Assembly (NCBI RefSeq): GCF_945882965.1
Contig: NZ_CAMCWY010000016.1
Span: 1 to 63,589 of the forward strand
Direction of reading: 5' to 3'
DNA length: 63,589 nt
Source: Sphingorhabdus sp. EL138
GTDB taxonomy: Bacteria; Pseudomonadota; Alphaproteobacteria; Sphingomonadales; Sphingomonadaceae
The notes under the pieces are model-generated. The model was not told where the DNA came from and did not search any database. It worked only from the letters and a program-made list of their open reading frames with translations. How positions within the stretch are numbered: the stretch's first letter is position 1; every line of letters begins with the position of its first letter. Made by a program: the position numbers and the translations under genes. Of the stretch, positions 3,936 through 37,021 are shown piece by piece.

Positions 3936-3995
3936 ATAAGTGAATCAAAAATGGCTCGCCGGACATCGATACCGGCGTATGAGGAGAGGAATTTC

Positions 3996-19973: not shown

Positions 19974-22900
19974 TTAGAAATTCGCCCGCGCGATGAACGA
20001 GAAGCGGCGGTCGTTCATGAAGTAGGAACGCGGTGCCAGTAGACTGGGGTTACCGGTATAGGCCTGCGAAGTCTTGGTCACCTCATTAAGCAGGTTAACG
20101 CCTTGGACCCCGATCTTAATGTTATCAGTCACGCTAAAGAATGCCGACGCATCCAACTGTCCAGTCGCTTCGTTGAAGATCGAATAATATGGGAAAATCA
20201 CATCCGATGCAGTCAGTAAGAAGCGTGAGCGCCAGTTATAAGCCGCACGGAGCGAGACTGGCCCCTTTTCATAGAAGACAGCGGCGTTCACATTATGCTT
20301 CGATAGCTGCTCAAGCGGCAGATTGCCGAGAGGTACTGTGGAGTTAGCGGCCAGATTGCCGCCGTTTAGGAACGTATTCGGAAGCCCCTTGCTCTTGATG
20401 TAAGTATAGTTGGCCGAAGTACCAAGACCGTCCAGAAATCCGGGGAGGAAATCATAGGTCTGCTGATGGGCAATTTCGAAACCTTTTACTTTACCCTTCC
20501 CGTCAAAGTTGGCCGGGCCGCGCACTAGGACATTCTGCGTAACGCCGTTGTTGGTAATCGAACGGTCGGTTACTGCCTGATAAAAGAAGTTTCGGATATC
20601 CTTGTAGAAGACATCCAAGGTAAGCGATCCAACCCGTGCGAAATACCATTCTGCAGTGAGGTCGAATTGCCAAGCAGTTGCGGGCTTCAGGAAAGGATTG
20701 CCAGTTTCGGCCGTCAAATTGCCCGCACCATCCAAGCCGGTGTTCAGGAAGTTCCGCAGATAGGCATTGTCGGGCCGGGTAAGAACTTTCGATGCGGCAA
20801 AGCGAAAATTAACGTCGTCCGACACGGCCAGTTTTGCGTTAAAGCTAGGCAACAGATAATTATAGTCGTTTTTGGCCGAATCAAATGCGTTTGATCCATC
20901 TGCAAATGTCTGAAGCGCCTCATACTGTGTCGAGTTCAACGTACTGCACAAACCGCCCGCAGGAACAGTACCTACTCCTCCTGGACCAGGTACGGGAGCG
21001 CAGCGAACGCTATAAGGCTGCGCAATACCCAGTTGCGCCTTGCTGCCGACGCTGATGTTGCCATCAGACCTAATGTCCGATGAAACATACCGCACGCCGA
21101 TATTCCCAGATAGCCGCATCCCGCCAAAGTCCTCGGAACCGAATTTCGCCTGCAGGTACAAAGCCGTGTCCTGCTGGCTGACCGGTTGGATTTCTGAGGG
21201 CAGGAATGCTGTGCCAGCTACCACACCATCGCGCTCCGCAAGCGGAACCCAACCGGCATTGCCGCCATTGGCAACCCAAGCAGCATTGACCGATTTAGCA
21301 AAGGTCGAAGATCCGGCATAATCGCCAATCAGATCGCCATTATAGTAGTACGCGCCAGCCGGCCCAGGTGACTGTCCGCGAAAGAAGTCCGGAAAGGCGT
21401 AGAAGTCAGCATTGCCGCTGCCGACCTGACTTACCGAAACCGGACTGCCCGCCCACACTTCGCTCAGCACGCCCCAGTTATATGTGGTGTAGCGAACAGT
21501 CTGATCGCGGTCCGCATATCGAGCACCGAACTTGAGCTGACGTAGGAAAGAAGTCTCGTCAAAGTCATAGGCCAGATCACCACGGAACTGAAATTCCGAA
21601 CCGGTACTATTTTCGATATGGTCCATTGCCGAGCGCCAGAATTGAACGCGCTTGTCAGCAAAATATTGCGCATCTGACATTGCCCCAAGCGTCGGGTTTG
21701 GTCCCGCCCAGCTGTACCCAAGATAGTTCGGTTTGTGCGGGATCACCACTGGGAGATCGCCGGTCAGGTCCAGCTCTTGATCCGCCCAGGTTGAACCCAT
21801 TATGCTGACATCGAGGTTTTTCTTTTCCGACTTTGTGTAGTCCGCGTCGAGGCTAAGGCTCAGTCTGTCCGTCAGCTTCGTCTGCATGTTAAGCGCATAA
21901 TCGGTGTTGGTACTTTCTTCGTCAACTTCGCGACGTGCAGCAACCTGCTGCAATCCACCAATTGGGACGAACGTATTTGGATTGCCGCGCCAGCCGTCAC
22001 TTGGATTAGTTATATATCCCTTTTGGAACAGATTATTCTCATCATAGGTGTAGTTCTGGAAACTGGAGCCAATCGGGCATTCTGCCCGGGTCGTGCCGTC
22101 GCCAAATGTACCATCGGCCCTCAGTTCAGCTGGCCCCCGGTTGTTTTGCAAGCAGCCGATTGGCTGAGTGCCATATTCCGAGAGATCCGAGCCTGTTTCG
22201 AATGTACGCTCACCCCATTTGTTGGTCGTGTGCGACCGAAGGAATTGCGCGGTGACTAAAGTATTGCGATCTGTTGATTCGAACTGGAAGGCAAGCGCCT
22301 GACCGTCACGTGTACGGTCGAATTCTTGTGTGCGGAATTGACCTCCAAGCGGCGCATAAGCCAGCGAACGCAGATCTGCGAAACCATCTGCGCCGGTTGT
22401 TTGTGCCGCATTACAGTTGTTGGACTGGGCGGGTAAAAGTGTTGTGTTGTCGCTGCTAGGAAGACGATTGCGGCATATTTGTGTGCCGCCGGCATTTGCC
22501 TTTAAGACATAGGCGCCGTCTCTTGTCTGGAAATTCGAAATCTGCAGGCCATCAGCACGGCTTTTGATGCGCGAGTAGGAAAGATTGCCCAAGAGGCCAA
22601 AGGTACCAATGCCGGTTTCCCAGGTGTTGCTTAGTAGAAGTGAACCTGTGGGCGTCCATTTTTTGCGGAAATCGCCATAATTGGCCTCAAGGTTCAAACC
22701 GATATGAAAGCCCTTGTTATCAAATGGCTTACGGGTGTTAAGGTTGACCGTTCCAGCAAGCCCGCCTTCAATCATGTCAGCCGTCGCATTTTTGCTGACA
22801 ATGACTGAGCCTAACAACTCGGATGGAACATCCGCAAAGTTCAAGGCCTGTCCGCCAACACCTGCTGCAAACGAATCACGCCCGTTGAATTCCGAGCGCA

Positions 22901-23312
22901 CAAAGTTCAGGCCGCGAATGACGACACCCGATCCCTCTACCGAGAAGTGGTCTGGATCATTCGAACCAGCAAAGCGGTTAATCGCTACACCAGGAAGCCG
23001 TTGGAGTGCCTCAGTTACGGAACGGTCGGGCAGAGCGCCGATGTCTTCCGCGGTAATGGCATCCACAATTGTGTCTGAATTCTTTTTGATGCTCTGCGCG
23101 TTTGCAAGGCTGGCGCGGATACCTGTGACAACAATGGCGTCTCCATTGTCTTCCGTCTCAACCGCTGCCGCATCTTGCGCATAGGACGGAGCGCTGGTCA
23201 GCAGCACACAAACCGCAAGCATTGATACACTTGCCTTCAAAGGCGATATCGGCACCTGCCCACATCCCAGTGCGCGAATCGACTCAAACAAATTCAATGA
23301 TGGCTGTTCCAT
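19974..23312 (-). CDS. TonB-dependent outer-membrane receptor for glycan fragments
   Basis: A 1112-residue TonB receptor of the large CirA/'TIGR01782' type common in sphingomonads and Caulobacter. It has a signal sequence (to about SAPSYAQ, residue 46), a TonB box near DAIVVTG, and a plug with DIGALPDRSVTEALQRLPGV and GGLAGTVNLNTRKPFD. A long beta-barrel ends RRFSFIARANF with the terminal aromatic. GGAAGGA lies 7 bases before ATG 23312. It is monocistronic, with a terminator behind it and two xylose-type operators in front. It probably imports xylan-derived oligosaccharides. The substrate is inferred from the operators and neighbours. Confidence 0.93.
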   Translation of the reverse strand: MEQPSLNLFESIRALGCGQVPISPLKASVSMLAVCVLLTSAPSYAQDAAAVETEDNGDAIVVTGIRASLANAQSIKKNSDTIVDAITAEDIGALPDRSVTEALQRLPGVAINRFAGSNDPDHFSVEGSGVVIRGLNFVRSEFNGRDSFAAGVGGQALNFADVPSELLGSVIVSKNATADMIEGGLAGTVNLNTRKPFDNKGFHIGLNLEANYGDFRKKWTPTGSLLLSNTWETGIGTFGLLGNLSYSRIKSRADGLQISNFQTRDGAYVLKANAGGTQICRNRLPSSDNTTLLPAQSNNCNAAQTTGADGFADLRSLAYAPLGGQFRTQEFDRTRDGQALAFQFESTDRNTLVTAQFLRSHTTNKWGERTFETGSDLSEYGTQPIGCLQNNRGPAELRADGTFGDGTTRAECPIGSSFQNYTYDENNLFQKGYITNPSDGWRGNPNTFVPIGGLQQVAARREVDEESTNTDYALNMQTKLTDRLSLSLDADYTKSEKKNLDVSIMGSTWADQELDLTGDLPVVIPHKPNYLGYSWAGPNPTLGAMSDAQYFADKRVQFWRSAMDHIENSTGSEFQFRGDLAYDFDETSFLRQLKFGARYADRDQTVRYTTYNWGVLSEVWAGSPVSVSQVGSGNADFYAFPDFFRGQSPGPAGAYYYNGDLIGDYAGSSTFAKSVNAAWVANGGNAGWVPLAERDGVVAGTAFLPSEIQPVSQQDTALYLQAKFGSEDFGGMRLSGNIGVRYVSSDIRSDGNISVGSKAQLGIAQPYSVRCAPVPGPGGVGTVPAGGLCSTLNSTQYEALQTFADGSNAFDSAKNDYNYLLPSFNAKLAVSDDVNFRFAASKVLTRPDNAYLRNFLNTGLDGAGNLTAETGNPFLKPATAWQFDLTAEWYFARVGSLTLDVFYKDIRNFFYQAVTDRSITNNGVTQNVLVRGPANFDGKGKVKGFEIAHQQTYDFLPGFLDGLGTSANYTYIKSKGLPNTFLNGGNLAANSTVPLGNLPLEQLSKHNVNAAVFYEKGPVSLRAAYNWRSRFLLTASDVIFPYYSIFNEATGQLDASAFFSVTDNIKIGVQGVNLLNEVTKTSQAYTGNPSLLAPRSYFMNDRRFSFIARANF

Positions 23313-23363: not shown

Positions 23364-23375
23364 GGTAGCGCTACC
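23364..23375. promoter_or_regulatory. Perfect xylose-type LacI operator, TonB receptor/flavin enzyme divergent region
   Basis: GGTAGCGCTACC is an exact 12-bp palindrome, the best match to the operator class in the window. It lies between the TonB receptor (minus) and the first halogenase-like gene (plus), about 90 bp from the latter, and so could control both. Confidence 0.85.
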
Positions 23376-23463: not shown

Positions 23464-24999
23464 ATGAGCAATGAAAATCATGCAATCCGCGATATTGTAA
23501 TCGTTGGCGGCGGCACCGCTGGCTGGATGGCCGCGGCGGCTTTTGGTCGTTTTTTGGATAATGGCCAACGCAAAATAACTGTTATCGAATCAGATGAAAT
23601 TGGCACTGTTGGCGTGGGTGAGGCGACCATTCCGGCGATCCTGAATTTCAACCGCATGCTCGATATCGATGAAAATGAATTTTTACGGGAAACGCAGGGT
23701 ACATTCAAACTGGGCATCGAGTTTGTAAATTGGGGTAGGCTGGGCGAAAGCTATTTCCACCCGTTTGGGCATTACGGTCAGGACCTACATGGCATCAATT
23801 TCCATCAGCTATATCTGCGCGAATATGCCCGCGGCGACCACCGGTCGATTTCCGAATACTGCATGTCGGCCATGGCGGCAAAGCTGGGGAAGTTCGGACG
23901 GGCCAATGCGACCGCACGTTCGCCGGTTTCCGAGTTATTCTACGCCTTTCATTTTGACGCATCCCTTTATGCGAAGTTTTTGCGCCGTCACGCTGAGGCC
24001 AATCGGGTTGTTCGGCAGGAGGGCAAGATTGTCCGCGTTCATCGCCGCGACAGCGACGGTTTTGTCGAATCCGTAGAGTTGGCCGACGGAACGAAAATCG
24101 CAGGTGAGTTGTTCATCGACTGCTCTGGCTTTCGCGGTCTGTTGATCGGCGACACGCTGGGTGTAGGTTATGAGGACTGGAGCCACTGGCTGCCGATGGA
24201 TCGCGCGATTGCCGTTCCGACCGCCAATATCGGCCCTCCTGACCCGTTCACCCGGTCAACCGCGCGGACTGCAGGTTGGCAATGGCGTATTCCGCTGCAG
24301 CACCGCAGCGGCAACGGGCATGTTTATTCGAGCCAATATCTCGACGATGACGCGGCCGAGGCGGTGCTGATGGCCAATCTCGAGGGCGAAGCTTTGGCGG
24401 ATCCGCGCCGGCTGCGTTTTACCACCGGAAGGCGTGAACTCAGCTGGAGCCATAATGTCGTGGCGCTTGGGCTTTCTGGTGGCTTTCTCGAACCGCTGGA
24501 ATCAACCAGCATCCACCTGATCCAGAACGGCATTGCGCGGCTGTTTGCTCTGTTTCCAGACAAAAACTTCAATCCGCTCGAACGCGACGAATATAATCGC
24601 GGGATGCGCGATCTTTATGAGGATATCCGGGATTTCATCATCCTGCATTACAAGGCGACGCAGCGCGATGACACTCCGTTCTGGTGCTATGTCCGCGATA
24701 TGGACATACCCGAGCCGCTAGCGCGCAAAATGGAATTGTTCAAAACACGGGGGCGAGTGTTCCGCGAGAATGCAGAGCTGTTTAGCATGCCGAGTTGGGT
24801 TGCGGTGATGTTGGGCCAGAACATCTGGCCCGAACACTGGGACACGCTGACCGATGCGCTCGATGAAAAGCGCGTAAGCGAAGCGATGGCGCAGATGCGT
24901 CGAGGCTATACTGCGACCGCCGATGCGCTGCCCACGCACGAGGAATTTTTGCGAAAGGCCGGGGCATGGGCTGCATCGGACGTCCGGATCGTGCCATGA
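23464..24999 (+). CDS. Flavin-dependent tryptophan-halogenase-like enzyme 1
   Basis: A 511-residue PrnA-type flavin enzyme. FAD is bound by VGGGTAGWMAA near the N-terminus. The catalytic Lys is present (Lys82 in GTFKLGIEF), as are GWQWRIPLQHR (the WxWxIP halogenase signature) and FLEPLESTSIHL (carrying the catalytic Glu-Ser). On known chemistry it would form hypohalous acid from FADH2 and halide. In this family next to TonB receptors the substrate is not known. ATG 23464 is preferred by alignment with its tandem partner. A GTG at 23449 is possible and has a poorly placed GGAAG. First gene of a three-gene operon with overlapping junctions. Confidence 0.9.
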   Translation: MSNENHAIRDIVIVGGGTAGWMAAAAFGRFLDNGQRKITVIESDEIGTVGVGEATIPAILNFNRMLDIDENEFLRETQGTFKLGIEFVNWGRLGESYFHPFGHYGQDLHGINFHQLYLREYARGDHRSISEYCMSAMAAKLGKFGRANATARSPVSELFYAFHFDASLYAKFLRRHAEANRVVRQEGKIVRVHRRDSDGFVESVELADGTKIAGELFIDCSGFRGLLIGDTLGVGYEDWSHWLPMDRAIAVPTANIGPPDPFTRSTARTAGWQWRIPLQHRSGNGHVYSSQYLDDDAAEAVLMANLEGEALADPRRLRFTTGRRELSWSHNVVALGLSGGFLEPLESTSIHLIQNGIARLFALFPDKNFNPLERDEYNRGMRDLYEDIRDFIILHYKATQRDDTPFWCYVRDMDIPEPLARKMELFKTRGRVFRENAELFSMPSWVAVMLGQNIWPEHWDTLTDALDEKRVSEAMAQMRRGYTATADALPTHEEFLRKAGAWAASDVRIVP

Positions 25000-26522
25000 A
25001 TGACTATGCCATCCGCAAAATGGTGATCGTCGGCGGTGGTACCGCCGGATGGATGACGGCTGCGGCATTTTCTCGAGTGTTCGGCGCGCTGCCGGGGCTG
25101 CATATTGAGCTTGTCGAATCCGACGCCATTGGCACTGTCGGTGTTGGCGAAGCAAGCATCCCTGATATCTGCCTGTTCAACAACTTGCTCGGCATCGATG
25201 AAAATGAGTTCGTGCGCCAAACCGGGGCGACCTATAAGCTCGGCATTGAGTTTGTCGACTGGACGCGGTTGGGGCATCGTTACGTTCACCCCTTTGGCCA
25301 TTATGGCATCGATATGATGGGTATCGAATTCCAACATTTCTGGCTTAAGGGCAAAGGGCTTGGCGACAACAGCCTGCTCGACGCCTATTCGATGGCGGCG
25401 GTGGCGGGTAAAGCAGGCCGGTTCATGCGACCGCAGTCGGACCAGCCCAATTCGCCGCTCTCCAAATTCAGCTATGCCTTTCAGTTCGATGCGGGCCGTT
25501 ATGCGAAATATCTGCGCGCTCGCGCAGAGGCGCAGGGCGTCAAGCGGACAGAAGGCAAAATCACAAAGGTCGAGCAGGATAATGAGAGCGGTTTTGTCAC
25601 TGCCGTCGTTCTTGAAAACGGCACGCATGTCACGGGCGACCTGTTCATAGACTGCTCGGGCTTTCGCAGCCTGTTGATTGGTGAAACGCTCGGCGTCGGG
25701 TTCGAGGACTGGACGCCGTGGTTGCCCTGCGACCGAGCGGTCGCCATTCCCTGCACGCATCCGGAAGGCGAATTGAGCGAACCGCTTACCCGCAGCACTG
25801 CGCGGCCCGCTGGCTGGCAATGGCGTATTCCGTTGCAGCACCGGATCGGCAATGGCCATGTTTATTCAAGCATGCATATGTCTTCTGACGAGGCAACTTC
25901 CTTATTACTTGCCAATCTTGACGGCGAACCGCTGGCCGACCCCAACTATATCCGTTTCACTGCCGGACATCGGCACAAGGCGTGGGAGAAGAATGTGGTT
26001 GCGTTGGGTTTGGCAGGTGGCTTTTTGGAGCCACTTGAATCGACTGCGATCCATCTGGTTCAGGCAGGCATTGCCCGACTGATGACGCTATTCCCAACTC
26101 GCGAATTTCGCCGCGAGGAAATCGACCGCTTTAACCGCGAGTCGATTGAAGATTATTCGGAAATTCGCGATTTCCTTGTGCTGCACTACAAAGCAACCGA
26201 ACGCAACGATTCCGCCTTTTGGGACTATTGCCGTACGCTGGAGCCGCCGCCTGGGCTGGCGGACAAGCTAGCAATGTTCCGTTCGTCGGGCAGGGTGTTC
26301 CGCGAGAATAACGAGCTGTTTACTGAGACGAGTTGGCTGTCGGTGATGGTGGGGCAAGGCATGGAGTCAGACGGCTATCACCCCGCAGCCGATTTACTGC
26401 CAGATAATGAAACGATGAACCGTCTTGCGCATATCCGTAGCGTTGTTCAAGGCACGGCGGATGCGATGCCAACGCAGTCCGAATTTCTCATCCAACAGGG
26501 TAGTGTGATGGTGAAGGGGTGA
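24996..26522 (+). CDS. Flavin-dependent tryptophan-halogenase-like enzyme 2
   Basis: A 508-residue paralogue of the preceding enzyme. All functional landmarks are intact: VGGGTAGWM, Lys81 in ATYKLGIEF, AGWQWRIPLQHR and FLEPLESTAIHL. ATG 24996 overlaps the previous stop as ATGA, and an upstream ATG at 24966 would create a non-homologous extension. Tandem duplication with divergence suggests either two substrates or a heteromeric role. No flavin reductase gene is in the window, so FADH2 must come from elsewhere. Confidence 0.9.
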   Translation: MNDYAIRKMVIVGGGTAGWMTAAAFSRVFGALPGLHIELVESDAIGTVGVGEASIPDICLFNNLLGIDENEFVRQTGATYKLGIEFVDWTRLGHRYVHPFGHYGIDMMGIEFQHFWLKGKGLGDNSLLDAYSMAAVAGKAGRFMRPQSDQPNSPLSKFSYAFQFDAGRYAKYLRARAEAQGVKRTEGKITKVEQDNESGFVTAVVLENGTHVTGDLFIDCSGFRSLLIGETLGVGFEDWTPWLPCDRAVAIPCTHPEGELSEPLTRSTARPAGWQWRIPLQHRIGNGHVYSSMHMSSDEATSLLLANLDGEPLADPNYIRFTAGHRHKAWEKNVVALGLAGGFLEPLESTAIHLVQAGIARLMTLFPTREFRREEIDRFNRESIEDYSEIRDFLVLHYKATERNDSAFWDYCRTLEPPPGLADKLAMFRSSGRVFRENNELFTETSWLSVMVGQGMESDGYHPAADLLPDNETMNRLAHIRSVVQGTADAMPTQSEFLIQQGSVMVKG

Positions 26523-27532
26523 CGTGGCTGTCCGAGCCAGTAGCGATTGCCGAAACCGGTAAAGCTGGTTTTACTGAATTTCACGAACATATCCGTCCTG
26601 CGGCAAAGCCTTTGGTGATGCGCGGTTTGGTCGCCGACTGGTCATGTGTAGCTGCCGGACAACGAGGCGATAGAGCGATGGTCGCCTATCTGAACGAATG
26701 TGGCACGACCCGCCCGGTAACCGCGCTCGCGGCGGCTCCGTCCGAGCAGGGGCGGCTTTTCTACAACCCGCAATTGACCGGATTTAACTTCATCAAGGGG
26801 CAGGGCCAACTGGCCAAATTCTTGGGCGACCTGATGGATGAAAATGCCAAAGACATGCCGCACGCAATGTCCGTCCAGTCGGAAGTCCTGCGCATCGTAT
26901 CGCCGCGCTTTGCGCAAGCGAACCGGCTTGATCTGTTACCCGATGTTGAAGGCCGCATCTGGCTCGGCAATCGCGTTCGGACGGCAACGCATTACGACCT
27001 GAGCGAAAATGTCGCCTGCAATGTAGCGGGCCGCCGCCGCTTCATATTGTTTCCGCCCGAGCAGATTTCTAACCTATATCTGGGGCCGCTCGAACTTACC
27101 CCTGCGGGAACGCCGACCAGCCTCGTTGACCCAATAAATCCTGACTTGGAGATCTATCCGCGTTTTGCAGAAGCATGGAAATATGCGCAAACCGCAACGC
27201 TCGAACCCGGCGATGCGATCTACATCCCCTATGGCTGGTGGCATGCGGTAGATAGCCTAGATACACTGAACATCCTCGTCAATTACTGGTGGAACAACCC
27301 GCATGAGGTTATGGCTCCGCCTTATGATGCGCTACTTCACATGATTGCGGCCTTCCGGCATCTGAACCCCGAACAGCGAGAGGTCTGGCGCAATATCGCC
27401 GAGTATTTTGCCTTTGGCGAGCATGATCCAGGCGCGCATTTGCCAGACGGATCGAAGGGCATGCTTGGGCCGTTTTCGCCGAACCTAATCAGCAAGATGA
27501 TGGCCTACATCAGAGCCTCGATGCAGCGTTAA
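26519..27532 (+). CDS. Cupin-like/JmjC-type 2-oxoglutarate-Fe(II) dioxygenase homologue
   Basis: A 337-residue Cupin_8 (JmjC-like) protein. The iron triad is visible: His158 and Asp160 in THYDLSENV and His242 in YIPYGWWHAV. The core follows the FIH/hydroxylase pattern, with RRRFILFPPEQ after the HxD. Start is GTG 26519, overlapping the previous TGA as GTGA, so it is translationally coupled. Such cupin proteins commonly sit beside halogenase-like genes and TonB receptors in alphaproteobacteria. They may hydroxylate a protein or peptide residue, but the target is unknown. The gene ends four bases into the convergent degenerate paralogue. Confidence 0.88.
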   Translation: MTWLSEPVAIAETGKAGFTEFHEHIRPAAKPLVMRGLVADWSCVAAGQRGDRAMVAYLNECGTTRPVTALAAAPSEQGRLFYNPQLTGFNFIKGQGQLAKFLGDLMDENAKDMPHAMSVQSEVLRIVSPRFAQANRLDLLPDVEGRIWLGNRVRTATHYDLSENVACNVAGRRRFILFPPEQISNLYLGPLELTPAGTPTSLVDPINPDLEIYPRFAEAWKYAQTATLEPGDAIYIPYGWWHAVDSLDTLNILVNYWWNNPHEVMAPPYDALLHMIAAFRHLNPEQREVWRNIAEYFAFGEHDPGAHLPDGSKGMLGPFSPNLISKMMAYIRASMQR

Positions 27533-29031
27533 ACACCAGGCTGCGGCAATACAGACTCCAGCCATTCGCCATAAGGCGGCGCTGCATCTACCGCTGCGCG
27601 CGCCGCATTTTCCGCCTGCTGCGTCAACGAGCGGTTCCGTTCAGCCGACTGGGCTAGCGCGTGGGCTGAGGGTGACGAGGATATGCCCAGCGCCAGCAGC
27701 ATAGCGCTCCACTCCGATGGCAGCACCGGCGCTTCTTCGAAAAAGGGCATCCGACCATGTCGCCGGTGCATGTCGATCAGCAGGTTGAACGACGGCGAAT
27801 ATGTGAGTTGCGACACACGCGCCGTAAACGGCGTGCCGGGCATTCCGAGCGCGGCATAATGGCTAGTCAACCAATCACGCAGCGACGAAGCCATCAGCTC
27901 CGCGCGGCGGTTATACTCTTCGCGTTCGCGTGGTTCGACGTTGCGCCCTGGGAGCAGTTCGAGCAACAAAGACAACTGTCGGTGGGCGAGATCCAGATTT
28001 GTACCGCCAATTGGCTCGAAACTCGCCGCTGCGTCGCCCAAGGCAACGACATTGCCGACAAAGGGCCGGACGAGTGCGCCGGGATGAATTGCCGCGGCGA
28101 TGGCAGCGGAAGCGCCTGCCCCTATTAGATGCGCTTCCGCGTCGGCACTGCCCAGCGATGCGGGGAATGCAAATATCCGCTGCACCCCGTCACGCCCGCC
28201 AATCTCGTTCAACCAGCCATGCGGGGTCAGGGTCATCCGATCTTCGAGCGCCAAAACTGGTTCACCCGGCGCGGCGATCAACACTCGATCGCAGGGCAGA
28301 TTTTCTCTCCAGCTGTCAAGCGTCGCGCCTGCCATCCTGCTCATCAACCAGCGCATAGGACCGCTGCAATCGATAAACAGGTCGGCGGCAATCGCTCCAG
28401 CATGGTCGTCAAGAATGACTGCAGCGATATCACCCCGTGCGCTATATTGCACATCAGCGGGCAATTTTGGTGCATATTGAATGCCAAGCTGCATCGCCTT
28501 TGCAATCAGCAGATTGCGATAGGCCTCGACATTCCATCGGAGCGCGTAATCAATAGTGGCGAGCGGTGAGTTGGGGTCGCCATCGGGTGGGCAAAAACGG
28601 CCCGTAGCAGCAAGCGCCGCGGCGGGTGTTAAAATCCTTGCTTCGGCTGCCCGACCGGGACTGCGGACGGCCTCAAAATGTCCCGTAAACGCATTGCCAA
28701 GCGCCGGGTTACCACTGCCATAACCGCTAATGCCCTCATGGGTCTCACTTGCCCAGCCGCGATAGCGAGTAACTAACCGGTGGCTCGCTCCAGCCCTTTG
28801 CACCAAATCCATTTCGGATATGCCGAGCCGGTCATGCAGCCGGTTCGTAAAGGGCATTGCTGTGCCAATACGGTCGGCAAAAGCAGCGTGATCTGCCGGA
28901 CTGGGAATTACAGTTACCGTCGTGGTCGGTAGTGCCTGGCGCAGGGCGATGGCGGTCAGTATGCCTACCTGTCCGTCGCCAACCACCAGAATGGCGTGCG
29001 GCAGTTCGCGGGGCTGAGCAGCATGATTCAT
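27529..29031 (-). CDS. Degenerate halogenase-like flavoprotein lacking catalytic residues
   Basis: A 500-residue relative of the three halogenase-like proteins. The fold is kept (NADLFIDCSG-type block AADLFIDCSGPMRW, closing PPYGEWL). The FAD loop is altered to VGDGQVGILTA. The catalytic Lys position reads Arg85 in ASHRLVTRY. The WxWxIP block is replaced by GWLNEIGG, and the Glu-Ser of EPLES reads EPIGG. It therefore should not halogenate. The gene is intact with no stops and starts by ATGA overlap with the upstream halogenase, which argues for a kept, different function such as a partner or sensor. Confidence 0.85.
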   Translation of the reverse strand: MNHAAQPRELPHAILVVGDGQVGILTAIALRQALPTTTVTVIPSPADHAAFADRIGTAMPFTNRLHDRLGISEMDLVQRAGASHRLVTRYRGWASETHEGISGYGSGNPALGNAFTGHFEAVRSPGRAAEARILTPAAALAATGRFCPPDGDPNSPLATIDYALRWNVEAYRNLLIAKAMQLGIQYAPKLPADVQYSARGDIAAVILDDHAGAIAADLFIDCSGPMRWLMSRMAGATLDSWRENLPCDRVLIAAPGEPVLALEDRMTLTPHGWLNEIGGRDGVQRIFAFPASLGSADAEAHLIGAGASAAIAAAIHPGALVRPFVGNVVALGDAAASFEPIGGTNLDLAHRQLSLLLELLPGRNVEPREREEYNRRAELMASSLRDWLTSHYAALGMPGTPFTARVSQLTYSPSFNLLIDMHRRHGRMPFFEEAPVLPSEWSAMLLALGISSSPSAHALAQSAERNRSLTQQAENAARAAVDAAPPYGEWLESVLPQPGV

Positions 29032-30551
29032 AGCTGCGGTGCCAGTCGCTCGCTGCGCGAATGCAGATAGGCGCGATGGTCCGGCATGGTCGCGACTTCC
29101 ATGTCAATTGCATGCTTCAGCGAAGACAGAGCGCGTGCCATACCGCCCGGGTCGGGAACCGAAACGCGCGGGTCGATGCCGTTGGGAAGGATGTTCTGCC
29201 CTAGAAAGACCGCTATCCAGCTGGCATCATAAAACAACCCTTCAGAATATTTGGCAATACGTCCGGTCCGTTTCCAAAGTTCTATCTTGCCTGCCAGACT
29301 GTCTGGCACCTGCATCGTACGAACGTGATCCCAAAATGGGGAATCGTCACGCGTTGTGGCGTGGTAATGCAGGATCAGGAAATCGCGGATGCGGTCATAT
29401 TCCATGTCAACGAGTCGGTTGAACTCGGCGCGGTCCGCGTTCTCAATCTTGCCGTCCTTGGGGAATAATTCGATCAAATAGGTGATAGCCATTTGCGCGA
29501 GATAGATACTGGTCGATTCGAGTGGCTCAAGGAATCCGCTTGCCAGCCCGACGCCGATGACGTTTTTGACGAAGCTGTTCTTGCGACGCCCGGCCCTGAA
29601 TTTCAGGATCCGGGGGTCTGCTAACGAAGTGCCTTCGACCGCAGCGACAATCGCATCCGCCGCTTTTTCGTCGTCGATGAAGCTGCTTGCGTAGACATAG
29701 CCGTTACCGACACGGTGCTGCAATGGAATGCGCCAACGCCAGCCAGCGGGCATGGCTATTGCGCGCGTGTAGGGTTCTATTATCTCGCTAGCCGCAGCGC
29801 AGGGCATGGCTACCGCGCGGTCGCACGGTAGCCAGTGCGACCAGTCCTCCCACTCCGCGCCGACAGCTTCTCCTAGCAGCATGCTGCGGAAACCAGAACA
29901 ATCGACAAACAGGTCGCCATTGATGCACTGTCCGTTGTCTAAGAGTAGCGTGGTGACATTGCCCGTTTCAGTGTCTTTCTGGACCTCGATAACTTTGCCT
30001 TCGATTCGCTCAACGCCTTTGCTGATGGCGAATGTGCGCATATACGGACCAAACAAAGTCGCGTCGAACTGATAGGCGTAGCCATAGGCTGAACCAAGCG
30101 TATGATCGTTTGCGGGTGGACGAAAACGGTTTGCGACCGCTGCTGCAACGCCCATTGAATAGTCGCTAATCGGACCAGCATCACCCCTTTGCTGCGCGGC
30201 GAGCCAATAATGGTGGAATGATATCCCCGCCAGCTCTTCACCGAAGCTACCGAATGGGTGGATATAGCTGTCGCCAATCTTACCGAAATCGCGGAAATCG
30301 ATGCCCAGCTTGTAGGTAGCGTGCGTCTCCCGCATGAAGTCGGATTCGTTAATACCAAGGCTTTCGACAAAGCTGCGTAGGTGCGGCAACGTAGCCTCTC
30401 CAACACCGACAATGCCGATATCTTCGGATTCAACGAGGGTCACGCGAACTTGTTCCCCAAGCATGACCGCAACGCCGGTTGCCGCCATCCAGCCCGCTGT
30501 GCCGCCGCCAAGTACTATGACATGGATGGGTTTTGCGCCACCGTTACTCAT
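29028..30551 (-). CDS. Flavin-dependent tryptophan-halogenase-like enzyme 3
   Basis: A 507-residue PrnA-type flavin enzyme with intact LGGGTAGWMAA, Lys81 in ATYKLGIDF, AGWRWRIPLQHR and FLEPLESTSIYL. ATG 30551 is chosen because GGGGAAGGA lies 7 bases upstream. The leader GGGAAGGATAC is the same as that before the TonB receptor. It is the third gene of a minus-strand operon (GH3, GH10, this, degenerate paralogue), directly tying the flavin enzymes to xylan breakdown. Confidence 0.9.
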   Translation of the reverse strand: MSNGGAKPIHVIVLGGGTAGWMAATGVAVMLGEQVRVTLVESEDIGIVGVGEATLPHLRSFVESLGINESDFMRETHATYKLGIDFRDFGKIGDSYIHPFGSFGEELAGISFHHYWLAAQQRGDAGPISDYSMGVAAAVANRFRPPANDHTLGSAYGYAYQFDATLFGPYMRTFAISKGVERIEGKVIEVQKDTETGNVTTLLLDNGQCINGDLFVDCSGFRSMLLGEAVGAEWEDWSHWLPCDRAVAMPCAAASEIIEPYTRAIAMPAGWRWRIPLQHRVGNGYVYASSFIDDEKAADAIVAAVEGTSLADPRILKFRAGRRKNSFVKNVIGVGLASGFLEPLESTSIYLAQMAITYLIELFPKDGKIENADRAEFNRLVDMEYDRIRDFLILHYHATTRDDSPFWDHVRTMQVPDSLAGKIELWKRTGRIAKYSEGLFYDASWIAVFLGQNILPNGIDPRVSVPDPGGMARALSSLKHAIDMEVATMPDHRAYLHSRSERLAPQL

Positions 30552-30627: not shown

Positions 30628-31788
30628 TTATCGTGCCGATGCCGTCTGAAGTGCCGCGGCCAGTTTCGAGTGCAGTGGTTTGGGTGCAAAATCGGCACTA
30701 TAAGGGCAGGCACGTTTAGCAAGTCCATCAGTGCGGAGCGGTTTGAACTCCTGCAACCATGAATATGAATCACACATGCCCCATGCAAGCACATCCTTGA
30801 GTTGCGGATAGTCCAACATGACTTCGAAATAGGCTTTAGCGTAGTCCGCAACCGACCGGTCCCGCGCCGAAAAATCCCCGGGCAAAGCCTGATCGTTTAC
30901 GTCGAATTCGGTGATCAATATATCGTAATTCATAGCCACCACCTCATCGAGAAATTTACGCCATTCCCGTTCCTGCCTCGGCCCAGTTCCTGTGGAGGGA
31001 TCATATGTATCGATCCTGATATGCGATTGGATGCCTAGCGCATCGACTGGCACACCGCGCGCCCTGAACCCTTCGAGCAGCTTGAGCACGCCCGCTCGGT
31101 GTTTTTCATTGCCTGGTTCCCAACTCATGTAGTCATTGTAAACGAGCTGGGCATCTGGCAGTTGTGCGCGTGCGGTTTGGAAGGCGAGATCGACCAGCGT
31201 CTCGGTGCCGCCAATGGCCCGGGAAATTGCGGTTTGTGCCAGCGTTGAGTCTTCCATCACTGTCTCATTGACAACATCATAGCTCAAGATGCGGCCGCGA
31301 TAACGGTCGGTGACTGTCGTAATGTGCGTGGTCAGCAAGCGTGCTGCTTCAGTTGCCGGGTTGGTACCAAAGTCATAGGCCTCCAACCAGCTCGGCTGCC
31401 ATTGCGGACGATGCCACATTAATGTGTGACCGCGCGTTGCCATATTATTTTTCTCGGCAAAGGCCAGTATCTCGTCAAATGGCGCAAAGTTGAAAGACAA
31501 TGGGTCGGGGCGTAACGACTGCCACTTCATTTCATTCTCGGCGACCAATATGCCGCAGTCGCGTTTCAGCAGCGACGCATAGCCTGTGTTTCGGAACGAG
31601 CCTGAACCGCTATGCCCCGCTCCAACCGCTGAGCCGAACCGCATACCTTTGGCCTTCGCAAGCTTATGTAGACTGTCGATTGTGGACGCAGCGCCAACAG
31701 AATTGACAGGCGAGCTGTAGTTTCCTGAGCAAGCCGTTGTCGCCAGCGCCAGCACCGCCGCCAGACCCTCACGCCGTGTCATTTCCAT
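30628..31788 (-). CDS. GH10 endo-1,4-beta-xylanase
   Basis: A 386-residue GH10 xylanase. The catalytic pair is clear: acid/base Glu175 in DVVNETV and nucleophile Glu294 in ITEFDVND. WHRPQWQPSW and AENEMKWQSL are further family motifs. The N-terminus MTRREGLAAVLALATTACSG has twin arginines and a lipobox-like TTAC (Cys20), so an exported, possibly lipid-anchored enzyme is likely. It cleaves xylan or xylo-oligosaccharide main chains, and the short catalytic-only form fits periplasmic or surface work. It starts 15 bp after GH3 with GGGGAGAA as ribosome site. Confidence 0.95.
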   Translation of the reverse strand: MEMTRREGLAAVLALATTACSGNYSSPVNSVGAASTIDSLHKLAKAKGMRFGSAVGAGHSGSGSFRNTGYASLLKRDCGILVAENEMKWQSLRPDPLSFNFAPFDEILAFAEKNNMATRGHTLMWHRPQWQPSWLEAYDFGTNPATEAARLLTTHITTVTDRYRGRILSYDVVNETVMEDSTLAQTAISRAIGGTETLVDLAFQTARAQLPDAQLVYNDYMSWEPGNEKHRAGVLKLLEGFRARGVPVDALGIQSHIRIDTYDPSTGTGPRQEREWRKFLDEVVAMNYDILITEFDVNDQALPGDFSARDRSVADYAKAYFEVMLDYPQLKDVLAWGMCDSYSWLQEFKPLRTDGLAKRACPYSADFAPKPLHSKLAAALQTASAR

Positions 31789-31803: not shown

Positions 31804-34185
31804 TCAAGGCGTGACGGTAAGCGTCACCGTTTTTAAATTGGCAGAGTCTGGACCCGCCATAATGTCGAACTCGCCCGGCTCCACGACGCGCTCCATCTTG
31901 TTATTCCACATCTGGAAAGTTTCGGGCGTGAGCGTGAAAATGACATTTCTGCTCTCGCCAGCGGCCAAAGTTACCCGTTTGAATGCCTTCAAGTCTTTGA
32001 CCGAACGTGTGACCGAGCTAACTTTGTCGCGGACATAGATTTGCACGGTTTCGTCACCTGCGCGGTCGCTGGTGTTCTTAACCGGAACAGTGACGGCGAC
32101 GGTGCCGTTTGTGGCAATTGTCGCCGATGAAAGCGTCGGTGCGCTAAGCTCAAATGTTGAATAGCTCATGCCAAAACCGAACGGGTAAAGCGGAGCCTTT
32201 TCGTCAAACAGATAGCCGCGCCGTGCGGTTGGTTTATGGTTGTAATAGAATGGCAATTGCCCAGCGTTGCGCGGGAACGTGACGGGCAGTTTCCCCCCAG
32301 GATTGATGTCGCCGAACAGCACATCGGCTAATGCATTGCCGCCCTGCTCGCCCAGATACCAGCCTTCAATTATTGCATTGGCGTCAGTGGCAATCTTTAC
32401 GATCGAAGGTGGCCGGCCATTTATAAGCACTACCGCAATTGGTTTGCCAGTCGCCTTCAGCGCATCGAACAATTCCTGTTGCTCGCCCACTAGATCAAGG
32501 CTGCTGCGGTCACCTAAATGGTTTTCTGCCCACCCCTCGCGGCTGGTCTGTTCGGTATCGCCCAGCGTTAGAATGATCTGGTCGGCATTCTTTGCGGTCT
32601 TAACTGCTTCGGCAATCAGCTTGCGGTTAGCTGCCGGATCGGCAAGCTTGACCTCATCACCCCACCAATCGTCATCTTCGGTGATCTTCACGCCTTGCGC
32701 AAAAACAACATTGGCGTGTGTGCCGGCCTTGGCCTTGATACCGTCTAGAATTGAGACGGTCACCGCCGGCTGGCCGTAATAGCCACCAAGCCGCGCCACG
32801 GCGGCACTTGGGCCGATTACTGCAATTGTTGCAGCCTTTGATGTTAGGCTCAAAGGCAGCATACCATCATTCTTGAGGAGCGTGATCGAACGCTGCGCCG
32901 CTTTCAATGCCAGCACCTTTGCCGCCGCGTTGTTGGTAATCTTGACCGCAGCATCGGCATCGGCATAGGGATTTTCAAACAGCCCGGCGCGGAACTTCAT
33001 TGCCAGTATCCGGCCTACAGCCTGATTTATAGCCGCTTCGGAAACCTTTCCTTCGCGCACCGATGTAATCAATGTCGAGTAGGCTGCTCCTGTTGGCAAA
33101 TCAGAATCCACGCCGGCCGCAAGCGCGAGTATCGCAGCCTCGGTTTTGTCCTTTGCAATGCTATGCCGACCGGCCAACTCATCAATCGCATAATAGTCAC
33201 TGACCACGGCGCCTTTGAAACCCCATTCCCCGCGCAGTACATCGCCCAGCAGCCATTTGCTGGCATGGCTTGGGACGCCGTCGATTTCGTTATAGGAAGC
33301 CATAACCGCTTGAATGCCAGTACGCTTGACCACCTGCTCAAAAGGTGGGAAAAAATACTCGCGCAGCACGCGTTCGGAGATGGAAGCAGGGCCGATATTG
33401 GTTCCGCTTTCTGGCTGGCCGTGGCCCGTCAGGTGCTTCAGTGTTGCAAACACTTTGCCTGGAGCAAGCGTCGTGACCCTGCCAGTGCCTTGCAAGCCTT
33501 CGACGGCTGCTACGCCCAATTCGGCTGTGAGATAGGGGTCTTCGCCAAAAGTTTCCTCGATCCGGCCCCAGCGTGGGTCGCGGGCAATATCGACCACCGG
33601 TGACAATGCGAGGCTAACGCCGCGAGCGCGGATTTCGCGGCCAATGACGACGTTGATCTCTCGTATCAAGCCGGGGTCCCACGACGAAGCGAGGGCAATA
33701 GCCTGCGGGAAGCTCGTAGCGTCTAGTGCTGCGTATCCGTGCAAGCCTTCTTCGTGCATCAATATAGGAATGCCCAGTCGGGTTTGCGTCATCGCATGCT
33801 TTTGCAGCGCATTCACAAGGCGCACGGTGCCACGTACATCACGCCCCTTGACCTTGCGGGGTGACACTGGACCTGATGCGTCAGACGGACGAGCAAATTG
33901 GCCGATGCCATAGGGGAATTTGGCTGACATTTTCACAGCGTCAAACTCGCCTTTGGCATCGAAGACTTCGGCCTTTGCATCCCAAACAGTCATGGTTTGG
34001 GCGACTTTTTCTTCCAATGTCATTTTCGCCAGCAGGTCATTTACTCGCGCGTCGACCGGCGCTTTGGCGTCTTTGTAAAGCGCTTCCGCTTCAACGGCCT
34101 CTGTGGCAGAAGCACGCTCGGGGTAGATTGCGGTTGCCGCGATCTCAGCGGTACATAGCAATAATGCGGCGGCACCAGATTTCAT
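31804..34185 (-). CDS. Secreted GH3 beta-xylosidase/beta-glucosidase with FnIII-like C-terminus (BglX-type)
   Basis: A 793-residue GH3 enzyme: signal peptide (about 1-27), TIM barrel with LMHEEGLHGY, DPRWGRIEETFGEDP and KHLTGHGQPESG, nucleophile Asp330 in VVSDYYAID, sandwich domain with INGRPPSI and WYLGEQGG, then the fibronectin-III-like domain (GDETVQIYVRD). This is the XynB/BglX layout used for xylo-oligosaccharides. ATG 34185 gives a signal peptide and has GGGAAG upstream. First gene of the GH3-GH10-halogenase operon, with an operator 29-40 bp before the start. Confidence 0.92.
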   Translation of the reverse strand: MKSGAAALLLCTAEIAATAIYPERASATEAVEAEALYKDAKAPVDARVNDLLAKMTLEEKVAQTMTVWDAKAEVFDAKGEFDAVKMSAKFPYGIGQFARPSDASGPVSPRKVKGRDVRGTVRLVNALQKHAMTQTRLGIPILMHEEGLHGYAALDATSFPQAIALASSWDPGLIREINVVIGREIRARGVSLALSPVVDIARDPRWGRIEETFGEDPYLTAELGVAAVEGLQGTGRVTTLAPGKVFATLKHLTGHGQPESGTNIGPASISERVLREYFFPPFEQVVKRTGIQAVMASYNEIDGVPSHASKWLLGDVLRGEWGFKGAVVSDYYAIDELAGRHSIAKDKTEAAILALAAGVDSDLPTGAAYSTLITSVREGKVSEAAINQAVGRILAMKFRAGLFENPYADADAAVKITNNAAAKVLALKAAQRSITLLKNDGMLPLSLTSKAATIAVIGPSAAVARLGGYYGQPAVTVSILDGIKAKAGTHANVVFAQGVKITEDDDWWGDEVKLADPAANRKLIAEAVKTAKNADQIILTLGDTEQTSREGWAENHLGDRSSLDLVGEQQELFDALKATGKPIAVVLINGRPPSIVKIATDANAIIEGWYLGEQGGNALADVLFGDINPGGKLPVTFPRNAGQLPFYYNHKPTARRGYLFDEKAPLYPFGFGMSYSTFELSAPTLSSATIATNGTVAVTVPVKNTSDRAGDETVQIYVRDKVSSVTRSVKDLKAFKRVTLAAGESRNVIFTLTPETFQMWNNKMERVVEPGEFDIMAGPDSANLKTVTLTVTP

Positions 34186-34213
34186 CGTCGCTGTCTTCCC
34201 TGGCGCTTGAAAT

Positions 34214-34225
34214 GATAACGCTACC
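34214..34225. promoter_or_regulatory. Xylose-type LacI operator before the GH3-GH10-halogenase operon
   Basis: GATAACGCTACC, an ACGC-core dyad (one mismatch) flanked as AT...AT, 29 bp before the GH3 start on the minus strand. Same class as those at 3924 and 40985. Confidence 0.7.
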
Positions 34226-34303
34226 ATGAAACAAGTCGAAGGCGTCGTCAATCTCTGACATTGTGTTCACATCGCACTTAAAAAGTATTGCGGAGCTTGG
34301 CTT

Positions 34304-34324: not shown

Positions 34325-35395
34325 GTGAAAATAGGCGACGACATAAATCAGAAATCACAACGTGGGCATCAAGGGGGTGCCACGATAGCCGATGTCGCTC
34401 GCGAATCCGGGTTCTCGCCTATGACTGTATCGCGGGTCATCAATGGTGAGAAAAATGTTAAGGATTCAACCCGCGAAGCAGTTCTTGCCGCCCTGAAAAA
34501 ATTGCAATATTCTCCTAACCTTGCAGCCAGATCGCTTGCTGGAGCTGAACCCATCCGGATTGTGATGCTCTACGGAAACCCAAGCGTCGCCTATCTCAGC
34601 CGCTTGCTCGTCGGCACTTTGGAGCAAGCCAGAAAAAGCCACGTCCAGTTGATCATTGAGCAATGCGATAGCGAGAAGGGCATCCGCGACGTTTTCAATG
34701 ACCTTGTCGAAGGCGCCGTTGACGGTATTATCTTGTCCGCCCCGCTGTCCGACTCGGCGACCGTTCAGGAATTGCTGGAAAAAACGGACATTCCATGCGT
34801 CGCGGTCAACAGCTGGTCCCCGCTCGGTAAAATGTCGGTGGTCCATATCGACGATGTTGAAGCAGCTGCCACGATGACGCGGCACCTTACGTCGCTGGGG
34901 CATAAACGCATCGGCTTTGTTAAAGGGAACCCCGAACATAACGCCAGCCTGCAGCGCCTGAAAGGCTTCGAAGTGGCGATGGCAGAGGCAGGATTGCCCG
35001 TTGACCCCGCATTGGTGGTCGATGGCCTGTTTACATACCGGTCCGGTTTGCAAGCAGCTGAGCAACTGCTAGATCTTCCTGATCCGCCGTCAGCCATTTT
35101 TGCGAGTAATGACGACATGGCAGCGGCCGTCATAACGGTTGCTCATCGGCGGCATTTGGATGTTCCACGAGACCTGACGGTTTGTGGATTTGATGACACC
35201 GACTTTGCATTGTCGATTTGGCCGGAACTCACCACGATACATCAGCCGATTGCTGAGATGTCGCGGGCAGCAGTAGAAATACTGGTTGAACGTATTCGCG
35301 AAAAGCGGTCAGGACGGACACCAAAACGCGAGCAGAGGTTGCTCGATTTCACGTTCGTTCGGCGTGAATCGGATGGTGCACCACCTTCAAAGTGA
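34325..35395 (+). CDS. LacI-family regulator, probable xylose/xylan repressor (XylR-like)
   Basis: A 356-residue LacI protein. The HTH is IADVARESGFSPMTVSRVING (from about residue 20) with hinge LQYSPNLAARSLAG, and the sensor ends FASNDDMAAAV and CGFDDTDFALS. The start is GTG 34325, with only a weak AGAG ribosome site. No better start precedes the HTH. It is divergent from the GH3-GH10-halogenase operon, and the operators around it share the GCGC/ACGC dyad, so it is the best candidate for the window-wide xylose regulator. Its 3' end overlaps the convergent GH43 gene by 9 bp. Confidence 0.88.
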   Translation: MKIGDDINQKSQRGHQGGATIADVARESGFSPMTVSRVINGEKNVKDSTREAVLAALKKLQYSPNLAARSLAGAEPIRIVMLYGNPSVAYLSRLLVGTLEQARKSHVQLIIEQCDSEKGIRDVFNDLVEGAVDGIILSAPLSDSATVQELLEKTDIPCVAVNSWSPLGKMSVVHIDDVEAAATMTRHLTSLGHKRIGFVKGNPEHNASLQRLKGFEVAMAEAGLPVDPALVVDGLFTYRSGLQAAEQLLDLPDPPSAIFASNDDMAAAVITVAHRRHLDVPRDLTVCGFDDTDFALSIWPELTTIHQPIAEMSRAAVEILVERIREKRSGRTPKREQRLLDFTFVRRESDGAPPSK

Positions 35396-37021
35396 TGGTG
35401 GGCCAGCATAAGGCCCGATAATTGTTCCGGTGAATAGCAATCCGTTGAACTCAGTCGCAAGAACACGCCCATCGGCGTCGGCAAGCAAAGTCTGCCATTC
35501 GCCGTCATTGACGGAATAGGTAAAGTCATAAGCGGCGCCTTTGGCCGTGATGCGCAGCCGAAGACTTGTCCCGCCCTCGAACGATGTCTCAGCAAGAACG
35601 CGGTCCTTTCCCGCATCGTGATGGCCGCTGCGGACTGCAATGATTAATCGCGTGCCGTCTAATCCAAAGAAATATTTGTGCTGTTCATCGGCAATGGCAG
35701 CCAAGCCTGCGCGCTCGCCATCCTTGAGCAATCTCGAACGTAACCCCGTTTCAATTGTCGCATAAGCATGCCGTTGGCGCCGTCCGACAAAAGACGGTTT
35801 GCCGTCGGCGCCTATCGTCAAGGCACCTGGCGTTGAACTCAGGTCGATCCATTCGTCGGTCGGACCGCGCCGCATAAGCCAATCATGGCCAAGCGATTTA
35901 CCGGTAAATTCGTCGCGCCATTGCGACCAATTTGAATTCTTGGGCGCCGCTCCTAACTTAGGTCGCCGTGTGACGTGGGGCACCGCCTGGCCTTGGGCTA
36001 ATATCACCGGCCACTCGCCGCTCCAATCGACCGGTAGCAGGAAGGTTTCGCGCCCCAAATTGGTAAGCCAACCTTCATATGGCCGGTTGCCGAGGAATAC
36101 AGACCACCACTCACCGTTTGGCAGTTGCACAAAGTCAGCGTGGCCGGTTGCTGTAACAGGGAATGGTCGTTTGGGGTCAAGGTCGCGCTGAGTTAGGATT
36201 GGGTTGTTCGGTCCCGCCACATATGGTCCGGTTACCGATTTGCTGCGGAACACCGTCTGTGAATGTTCGCCCGAAGTCCCGCCTTCCGCCGCGATCAGGT
36301 AATACCAGCCACCTTTCTTGATGATGTGGGGCCCTTCGGTCCAAATCGGCTTTTCCCAGGGAGATACACCCTTATCGACGATGACGCGGCGTGGCGCGAT
36401 AAGCCGCTTCGCCAGGAGGTCATATTCTTGGATCCATAAGGCCCGGTGGCCTTCATAGTCTGGGGCGCTCTCGGGCGGACCGTTGTAAGTAATCCATACC
36501 CGGCCATCGCCGTCAAAAAAGATGTCCGGGTCGATGCCATCAATCTCCTTGAGCCAGACCGGGTCGGACCAGGGCCCTTTTGGATCTCGCGCGGTGATGA
36601 TGAAATTGGATCCGCAATCGATGCAGGTGTTGATGATATAGAAAAGCCCCATGTGCCAGCGGATTGTCGGCGCAAACAAACCCCGATTTATGCCAACGCT
36701 TTCGATGTCAAACATGCCAGGCCGGTTAATTGCATTGCCGATCTGCTGCCAAGTGACGAGATCGCGGCTATGGTAGATTGGCAGACCAGGAAACCAGCCG
36801 AACGTTGAATTGACCAGATAATAGTCTTCGCCGACGCGGACGAGGCTGGGGTCGGGATGGAATCCAGGTATAATTGGATTGCGGTAATCCCCGGATGTGA
36901 CGGGAATGGCGTCCTCGACTGGATCTCGGCCCTGATAGGACACATAGTCGAACATGGCTTGCGCGTGTCCGCGGGACGCAACTAGCAGCGCCGCTAAGCC
37001 GACTATCGAACGTTTAATCAT
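35387..37021 (-). CDS. GH43 beta-xylosidase/arabinofuranosidase with C-terminal concanavalin-like domain
   Basis: A 544-residue GH43 enzyme with signal peptide (residues 1-20). The five-blade propeller bears the three acidic residues: Asp57 in GFHPDPS (base), Asp164 in GIDPDIFF (modulator) and Glu229 in WTEGPHI (acid). A C-terminal beta-sandwich of about 190 residues (WRDEFTGKSLGHDW ... TIIGPYAG) is the XynB/GH43_C2-like domain that completes the active site of xylosidases. It releases xylose or arabinose from xylan fragments. Last gene of a five-gene operon, joined by ATGA overlap to the mutarotase. Confidence 0.93.
   Translation of the reverse strand: MIKRSIVGLAALLVASRGHAQAMFDYVSYQGRDPVEDAIPVTSGDYRNPIIPGFHPDPSLVRVGEDYYLVNSTFGWFPGLPIYHSRDLVTWQQIGNAINRPGMFDIESVGINRGLFAPTIRWHMGLFYIINTCIDCGSNFIITARDPKGPWSDPVWLKEIDGIDPDIFFDGDGRVWITYNGPPESAPDYEGHRALWIQEYDLLAKRLIAPRRVIVDKGVSPWEKPIWTEGPHIIKKGGWYYLIAAEGGTSGEHSQTVFRSKSVTGPYVAGPNNPILTQRDLDPKRPFPVTATGHADFVQLPNGEWWSVFLGNRPYEGWLTNLGRETFLLPVDWSGEWPVILAQGQAVPHVTRRPKLGAAPKNSNWSQWRDEFTGKSLGHDWLMRRGPTDEWIDLSSTPGALTIGADGKPSFVGRRQRHAYATIETGLRSRLLKDGERAGLAAIADEQHKYFFGLDGTRLIIAVRSGHHDAGKDRVLAETSFEGGTSLRLRITAKGAAYDFTYSVNDGEWQTLLADADGRVLATEFNGLLFTGTIIGPYAGPPSL

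Follow-up and report, generated by a model that had tools for sequence, protein, structure and literature searches.

The locus

The window analysed here is a stretch of 63,589 nucleotides from Sphingorhabdus sp. EL138 (contig NZ_CAMCWY010000016.1; a genome of 2.36 Mb in 38 contigs, 99.85% complete; gene calls made in this analysis), and its subject is a group of halogenase-like and cupin genes beside a TonB-dependent receptor (TBDR). The receptor gene (19974..23312, minus strand) belongs to the TIGR01782 (Xanth-Caul) subfamily (NCBIfam, 660 bits against a cut-off of 310; AF2 model with pLDDT 79.5). Divergently from it run H1 (23464..24999), H2 (24966..26522) and CUP (26519..27532), all on the plus strand, followed on the minus strand, and convergent with CUP, by H4 (27529..29031) and H3 (29028..30551), which overlap each other by 4 bp. 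H3 and H4 in turn lie downstream, on the same strand, of a glycoside hydrolase (GH) family 3 gene (31804..34251; PF00933/PF01915) and then of a GH10 xylanase gene (30628..31788; PF00331). The genome has exactly four PF04820 (Trp_halogenase) matches, H1 to H4, and one Cupin_8 match, CUP, and all five lie between the TBDR and the GH10/GH3 genes. A sequence-only reading of this DNA had placed three intact halogenase-like genes and a cupin homologue in just this interval, and Pfam and the motifs bear it out; where it put one halogenase gene inside the GH3-GH10 operon, the same-strand order GH3, GH10, H3 holds, but H3 is downstream of GH10 and not between the two. Some starts allow a choice: H1 begins at ATG 23464, with its open reading frame (ORF) also open from GTG 23449; H2 begins at ATG 24966 or ATG 24996; and H3 begins at ATG 30551, with the frame also open from TTG 30569.

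Three halogenase homologues and a pseudohalogenase

H1, H2 and H3 (PF04820 at 649, 614 and 595 bits, respectively) keep the GxGxxG motif, the catalytic Lys87 (H1 numbering), WxWxIP and Glu351-Ser352, as the sequence-only reading had said of three genes. They are BrvH/Xcc4156-type flavin-dependent halogenase homologues with putative halogenating activity. Identity to H1 is 54% for H2, 45% for H3 and 25% for H4. Searched against the PDB, H1 and H3 find Xcc4156 (6y1w; 526 bits with H1), 9luq and BrvH (6frl) as their best matches, at 439-526 bits over nearly the full length (9luq and 6frl for H3), whereas entries of the PrnA/RebH type score about 190-300 bits. Among 275 relatives scoring above 500 bits, the Lys is kept in 256, the Glu in 263 and the second Trp in 264. 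The lower-scoring PF04820 relatives in the surveyed loci (200-500 bits, n=59) keep the catalytic Lys in 35, the Glu in 31 and the Pro of WxWxIP in 22 cases, and may include further pseudohalogenase lines. Read by eye, H1-H3 have no evident signal peptide.

H4 (PF04820, 196 bits) is of a different kind: both catalytic residues are gone (Lys to Arg, Glu to Gly), and WxWxIP is lost. In the best 120 of 496 relatives from a protein search, Arg stands at the catalytic Lys in 119 of 120, and the catalytic Glu and the WxWxIP Pro are absent from all 120, but 117-119 retain the GxGxxG glycines, and conservation reaches at least 97% at 80 positions. The sequence-only reading had called H4 a degenerate paralogue; an intact 500-amino-acid gene, with active-site losses common to a subfamily that is conserved elsewhere, rules out a decaying pseudogene. 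H4 is thus, as judged from these alignments, a conserved pseudohalogenase with a remodelled active site, in which binding of flavin adenine dinucleotide (FAD) may still be possible. Among 149 genomes of the window's own family, 12 relatives besides H4 itself were found, at 43-51% identity (one with an in-frame TGA, one cut by a contig end). An H3 relative lies beside the H4 relative in 11 of the 11 of these loci in which the flank is present, and a convergent CUP comes next in 10 of the 12. Because the two genes are adjacent and overlap by 4 bp, H4 probably works with H3.

Linkage to the receptor across genomes

PF04820 by itself is unspecific (an E. coli control exceeds its cut-off), so strong matches to H1-H3 were used for the surveys. 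Three sets of loci were drawn: named loci, the best 80 of at least 586 found by scanning GTDB genomes; 20 family loci, selected from the search of 149 genomes mentioned above; and phylum loci, from a sample of 249 genomes that includes the window's own, with at most six candidates scored per genome. The record titles of the named loci include Sphingomonas, Caulobacter, Brevundimonas, Asticcacaulis, Massilia, Undibacterium, Aestuariibacter, Gilvimarinus and others. Two records, L060 (Arthrobacter sp. TPD3018) and L065 (Bacillus sp. 2B10), bear Gram-positive titles yet have Sphingomonas-like TBDR-halogenase loci; these genomes are probably misnamed or contaminated. Two further loci, L041 and L056, apparently come from one genome, so that the 134 linked receptors considered below are 133 distinct ones and 15 aligned H4 rows probably represent 14 genomes.

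Of the 80 named loci, 68 contain a TBDR, which in 63 lies directly beside a halogenase gene. In the phylum sample, 24 of 249 genomes have a match to the H1-H3 profile; 46 strong locus groups were examined, excluding those already sampled (one strong match, G376:C1:178908-180383, was left out), and 39 of them have a TBDR within about 6 kb on either side, against 1 of 20 control windows from the same genomes; the control windows (19.9 kb) are larger than most test windows (~13.5 kb). Around weak halogenase matches the figure is 4 of 8. Direct adjacency of TBDR and halogenase holds in 19/20 family loci and in 27/45 phylum loci, or 36/45 when counted through other genes of the module (45 rather than 46, the halogenase of L191 having been lost in gene calling). 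Of the borders between the two genes, 51 are divergent, 62 co-directional and 2 convergent. Seen from the receptor, 18 of 60 receptor-centred loci carry a halogenase, which is a low estimate, most receptors already sampled beside a halogenase having been left out; on trees of 175 receptors a switch between linked and unlinked occurs just 7 to 10 times. The linkage is conserved in alpha-, beta- and gammaproteobacterial loci. Random placement relative to TonB receptors had been named in the sequence-only reading as what would undo its proposal; the genome survey finds placement to be non-random. There is good support for a conserved set of oxidative enzymes that is linked to the receptor and, it seems, regulated by sugar.

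CUP and the wider module

CUP (PF13621) is an FIH-like JmjC/Cupin_8 protein whose triad H158-x-D160...H242 is invariant in 49 of 49 aligned rows, the window's own included. Its closest relatives in the PDB by sequence are FIH and JMJD5, which are protein hydroxylases. Near the place that would correspond to the lysine by which FIH binds 2-oxoglutarate, CUP has Arg173 in 49/49 and Arg174 in 46/49 rows.

Two further families join the set in loci outside the window's family. The gene of about 245 codons that stands between the TBDR and the cupin or halogenase genes in many of them is SapC (PF07277; 7 of 7 tested), found in 11/46 phylum and 2/80 named loci. DUF6445 (PF20043) occurs in 7/46 phylum and 3/80 named loci; neither family occurs in the 20 family loci or the 20 controls. 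DUF6445 carries HxD...H and a conserved Arg in 12 of 12 rows (L159:5344-6027 among them), the typical pattern of 2-oxoglutarate-dependent oxygenases; the SapC rows do not have it. The AF2 model of one SapC (L077:13071-13811) has a pLDDT of 95, and Foldseek gave no clear PDB match for it. The window's genome has two SapC genes, elsewhere than in the window; SapC genes were recorded at G000:C8:79036-79695 and C2:150612-151277.

A candidate operator and the surrounding genes

Between the divergent TBDR and H1 genes lies a perfect palindrome, GGTAGCGCTACC (23364..23375), a candidate LacI-type operator, which presumably resembles the Caulobacter XylR operator. Motif search finds a copy, GATAGCGCTACC (40985..40996), in front of a GH3 gene with an Exop_C domain (41018..43516, plus strand) and another, GGTAGCGCTAAC (3756..3767), between divergent FGGY sugar kinase and sugar transporter genes. 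With up to two mismatches, GGTAGCGCTACC has six matches in the window against 1.94 expected, a number reached in 1 of 100 shuffles. In the whole genome, TAGCGCTACC occurs at three places, all in the window and all just named (between the FGGY kinase and transporter genes, between TBDR and H1, and before GH3), compared with 27 genome matches for its reversed control pattern. In related genera, copies of TAGCGCTA lie at the TBDR/halogenase border and near the arm formed by a transporter gene, H3 and H4; such copies precede a TBDR or halogenase gene in 26 of the 155 loci of the halogenase set, against 1 of the 60 receptor-centred loci. The corresponding count of 0/20 in controls says little, there being hardly any TBDR or halogenase genes there, and density per 10 kb is the fairer measure: 0.25 in the halogenase set, 0.05 in the receptor set and 0.08 in controls. 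For H3-H4 in the window, the best site, near GH3-GH10, has two mismatches (34214).

The transporter, of the major facilitator superfamily (MFS; 3918..5402, plus strand), has relatives directly upstream of H3-H4 in several other genera. Across the candidate operator from it lie a xylose-isomerase-like gene and the FGGY kinase gene (934..3707, minus strand), and a xylosidase-like GH43 gene (35387..37021, minus strand) lies beyond GH3; all were assigned by Pfam scan of the window proteins. With the operator copies and these xylose-isomerase-like, kinase, GH43, GH5 and GH3 genes in view, H1-H2-CUP looks like part of a xylose/xylan regulon under a candidate operator common to it and the TBDR. This candidate operator and the non-random placement favour a role tied to glycan uptake and the TonB receptor, which the sequence-only reading had proposed. 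Of 24 TBDR-barrel family matches in the genome, two receptors, one of them the window's, exceed the TIGR01782 cut-off. A TBDR, carbohydrate-active enzymes, a sugar regulator, a transporter and the shared candidate operator give the region the make-up of a carbohydrate-utilisation (CUT/PUL-like) locus.

LacI-family regulator genes number five in the window (5921-6937; 34325-35395, on the plus strand, PF00356/PF13377; 43864-44859; 47187-48239; 56237-57253). A second polysaccharide region, at 7125-19665, holds alginate-lyase-like, two GH88, GH3, aldo-keto reductase, HbpS-like and molybdopterin-binding genes, which suggests use of a uronate-containing glycan. Sizeable ORFs with no Pfam match (at 1e-5 or 1e-6) lie in or beside the sugar regions at 13854-14513, 37893-39032 and 46288-47094.

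Receptor rather than xylan alone

Sorted by glycoside hydrolase, 18 of the 80 named loci have GH10 or GH43 and look xylan-type, 17 have GH13 and neither of the former and look maltodextrin-type, 20 have other listed families, and 25 have none of those listed. Halogenase genes average 3.1 in the GH10/GH43 loci and 1.35 in the GH13 loci. The TBDR, in 68/80, is a steadier neighbour than any of the ten GH families taken together, in 55/80, although one of the ten labels (GH74) is a guess from sequence and not a Pfam result, and some loci are cut by contig ends. The 17 GH13 loci rule out a function confined to xylan: it is with the receptor that the enzymes are associated, and only in some loci with xylan. 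Maltodextrin is not known to bear ferulate, and the same loci weaken the idea, from the sequence-only reading, that the enzymes act on feruloyl or lignin-derived phenolic decorations. Halogenase genes are presumably also present in a Xanthomonas xylan locus and in a Caulobacter maltodextrin locus.

What the enzymes may act on

The reading that we prefer, at a probability of about 0.45, is that H1-H3, H4 and CUP serve the neighbouring carbohydrate TBDR as dedicated accessory enzymes in the cytoplasm and probably act on the receptor polypeptide. Xylan or xylose would cause a LacI-type repressor to leave the candidate operator, with joint production of receptor and enzymes; the flavin enzymes, with their open pockets, and the FIH-like oxygenase would then modify side chains, aromatic and other, of a polypeptide that is most likely the not yet exported receptor, and the modification would tune the receptor's ligand-binding surface. 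H4 would bind FAD and assist H3 without catalysis of its own. For the substrate, the best guess is the receptor polypeptide, at somewhat under even odds. A wider proposal, in which BrvH-type halogenases, pseudohalogenases, FIH-like cupins, DUF6445 and SapC form a maturation system that oxidises or halogenates TIGR01782 carbohydrate TBDRs, this being the native job of the orphan halogenase clade, is possible, if less likely than not.

Several comparisons of receptor and halogenase point toward the receptor. Over 130 pairs their distances correlate at r 0.558; for the 40 pairs that come from 15 genomes or records with more than one pair, the Mantel r is 0.649, compared with 0.22 for within-genome shuffles, none of 1000 of which reaches it; and in 55 of 130 cases the nearest relative of receptor and of halogenase is found in the same locus. 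Linked receptors contain 1.30% Trp (n=134), unlinked ones 0.89% (n=41), and W688 is present in 61% of the former and 15% of the latter. Of 74 xylan-type receptors, 72 have W613 and 72 have W620, both in the segment YNWGxLSExW, and the presence of this Trp pair rises with the number of halogenase genes scoring above 450 bits: 0/51 with none, 15/62 with one, 21/26 with two, 21/22 with three and 14/14 with four or more. In the model, the two residues appear to sit, with W688, in a long loop that runs from the end of one strand near 607 to the start of another near 707 and would be extracellular by the usual barrel rule.

A number of observations weigh against this assignment. TBDR and halogenase are co-inherited (0.607) no more strongly than TBDR and LacI regulator (0.559; bootstrap difference -0.10 to 0.22, 32 loci), and what is established is therefore travel as a cluster and not contact. 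The Trp-pair correlation rests on one receptor clade, with two tree changes and no informative independent pairs, and phylogenetic correction reduces the relation of Trp enrichment to halogenase number to r 0.15 (p 0.043, not adjusted for the 16 residues compared). The alignment has no aromatic column shared by all 134 linked receptors and missing from the 41 unlinked ones. Seven of the 46 phylum loci have no TBDR within about 6 kb on either side. Since H1-H3 have no evident signal peptide, the receptor would be modifiable only before export.

Among the other explanations, the substrate might instead be a small aromatic that enters with, or is released from, the polysaccharide (a feruloyl or other phenolic decoration) and is detoxified or opened by the enzymes. 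TBDR, GH10, GH43 and sugar MFS genes do stand in one region with common operator copies, and free indole is turned over, slowly, by BrvH (PMC5945002). However, the 17 maltodextrin-type loci have the same kind of enzyme and no obvious aromatic, and a Pfam scan of 39 window proteins (three of which matched nothing) finds no esterase or ring-cleavage family, so that we hold this explanation to be unlikely, if not negligibly so. It is rather less probable that the flavin enzymes hydroxylate or cross-link aromatic side chains instead of halogenating them, in the manner of the flavoenzymes LodB and QhpG, maturases of quinone enzymes with protein-bound Trp as their target. The catalytic residues missing from some linked PF04820 relatives would suit such chemistry, as would the weak hits of the LodB profile to H1 and H3 and of the QhpG profile to H2 and H3, but the best scores (27 bits against an NCBIfam cut-off of 400 for LodB, 31 against 240 for QhpG) fall far short, and WxWxIP, which PMC5945002 describes as thought to prevent monooxygenase chemistry, is kept in H1-H3.

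Many characterised halogenases lie in biosynthetic clusters, and the enzymes might contribute to a secreted halogenated compound, a signal or antibiotic, whose synthesis elsewhere is turned on during feeding; yet the same source counts 83 of 103 halogenases of bacterial genomes outside such clusters (PMC8269204), and in the presumed BrvH host genome the authors found one cluster, for a bacteriocin (PMC5945002). Direct receptor adjacency in 63/80 named loci likewise makes a product of this kind improbable. The remark in the sequence-only reading that no natural-product genes lie here stands: Pfam finds no biosynthetic gene among the 39 window proteins, and a natural-product cluster in the window was rejected, none of the 39 being a scaffold-making gene by Pfam (no dedicated cluster finder was run). 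Hardly any credence is due to the view that the genes came together by chance in a gene-dense sugar region, or that H4 is a copy in decay: TBDRs are common in such genomes, as the 24 barrel-family matches in this one attest, but coincidence fits neither the 39/46 against 1/20 of the phylum survey nor the losses common to H4's best 120 of 496 relatives, whose other positions are conserved.

Relation to known systems

BrvH and Xcc4156 are, with 9luq, the best solved relatives of H1 and H3 and share all of their motifs, and the brvH gene also neighbours a second halogenase gene (PMC5945002). According to that report, BrvH brominates indole but not tryptophan, and its open active site is likened to that of MibH; the authors doubt indole as the natural substrate and suggest larger ones. 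The Xcc4156 report also describes an open site, with larger substrates, possibly peptides, suggested (PMC7336383), and both reports give the native substrates as unknown. Here, by contrast, a receptor, a cupin and a pseudohalogenase go with the genes; the word 'TonB' does not occur in the main text of either report. PrnA and RebH share the PF04820 family, the catalytic Lys and Glu and WxWxIP, but score far lower than the BrvH-type entries with H1 and H3 (see above), and free Trp is not halogenated by BrvH (PMC5945002). CUP shares with FIH and JMJD5 the HxD...H triad and the cupin domain but is bacterial and has Arg near the presumed place of FIH's 2-oxoglutarate lysine. LodB and QhpG have a related FAD-binding part, at scores far below the family cut-offs.

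The Xanthomonas xylan CUT locus and the carbohydrate TBDRs of Caulobacter resemble the present locus in having a TBDR in a xylan-use cluster and induction by sugar (PMC1790865). The word 'halogenase' does not occur in the main text of that paper, nor in the main texts of the sugar-regulon papers PMC2996990 and PMC4052901. No paper on a TBDR-halogenase link was found in the open-licence literature, although a prior mention of their co-location, without a function, is quite possible.

If the receptor is indeed the substrate, outer-membrane nutrient receptors would carry a layer of side-chain chemistry that we did not find in the open-licence literature. The receptor linkage itself provides a concrete, testable partner for the BrvH/Xcc4156 clade, and it could account for 'tryptophan halogenase' annotations in genomes without a known halogenated product.

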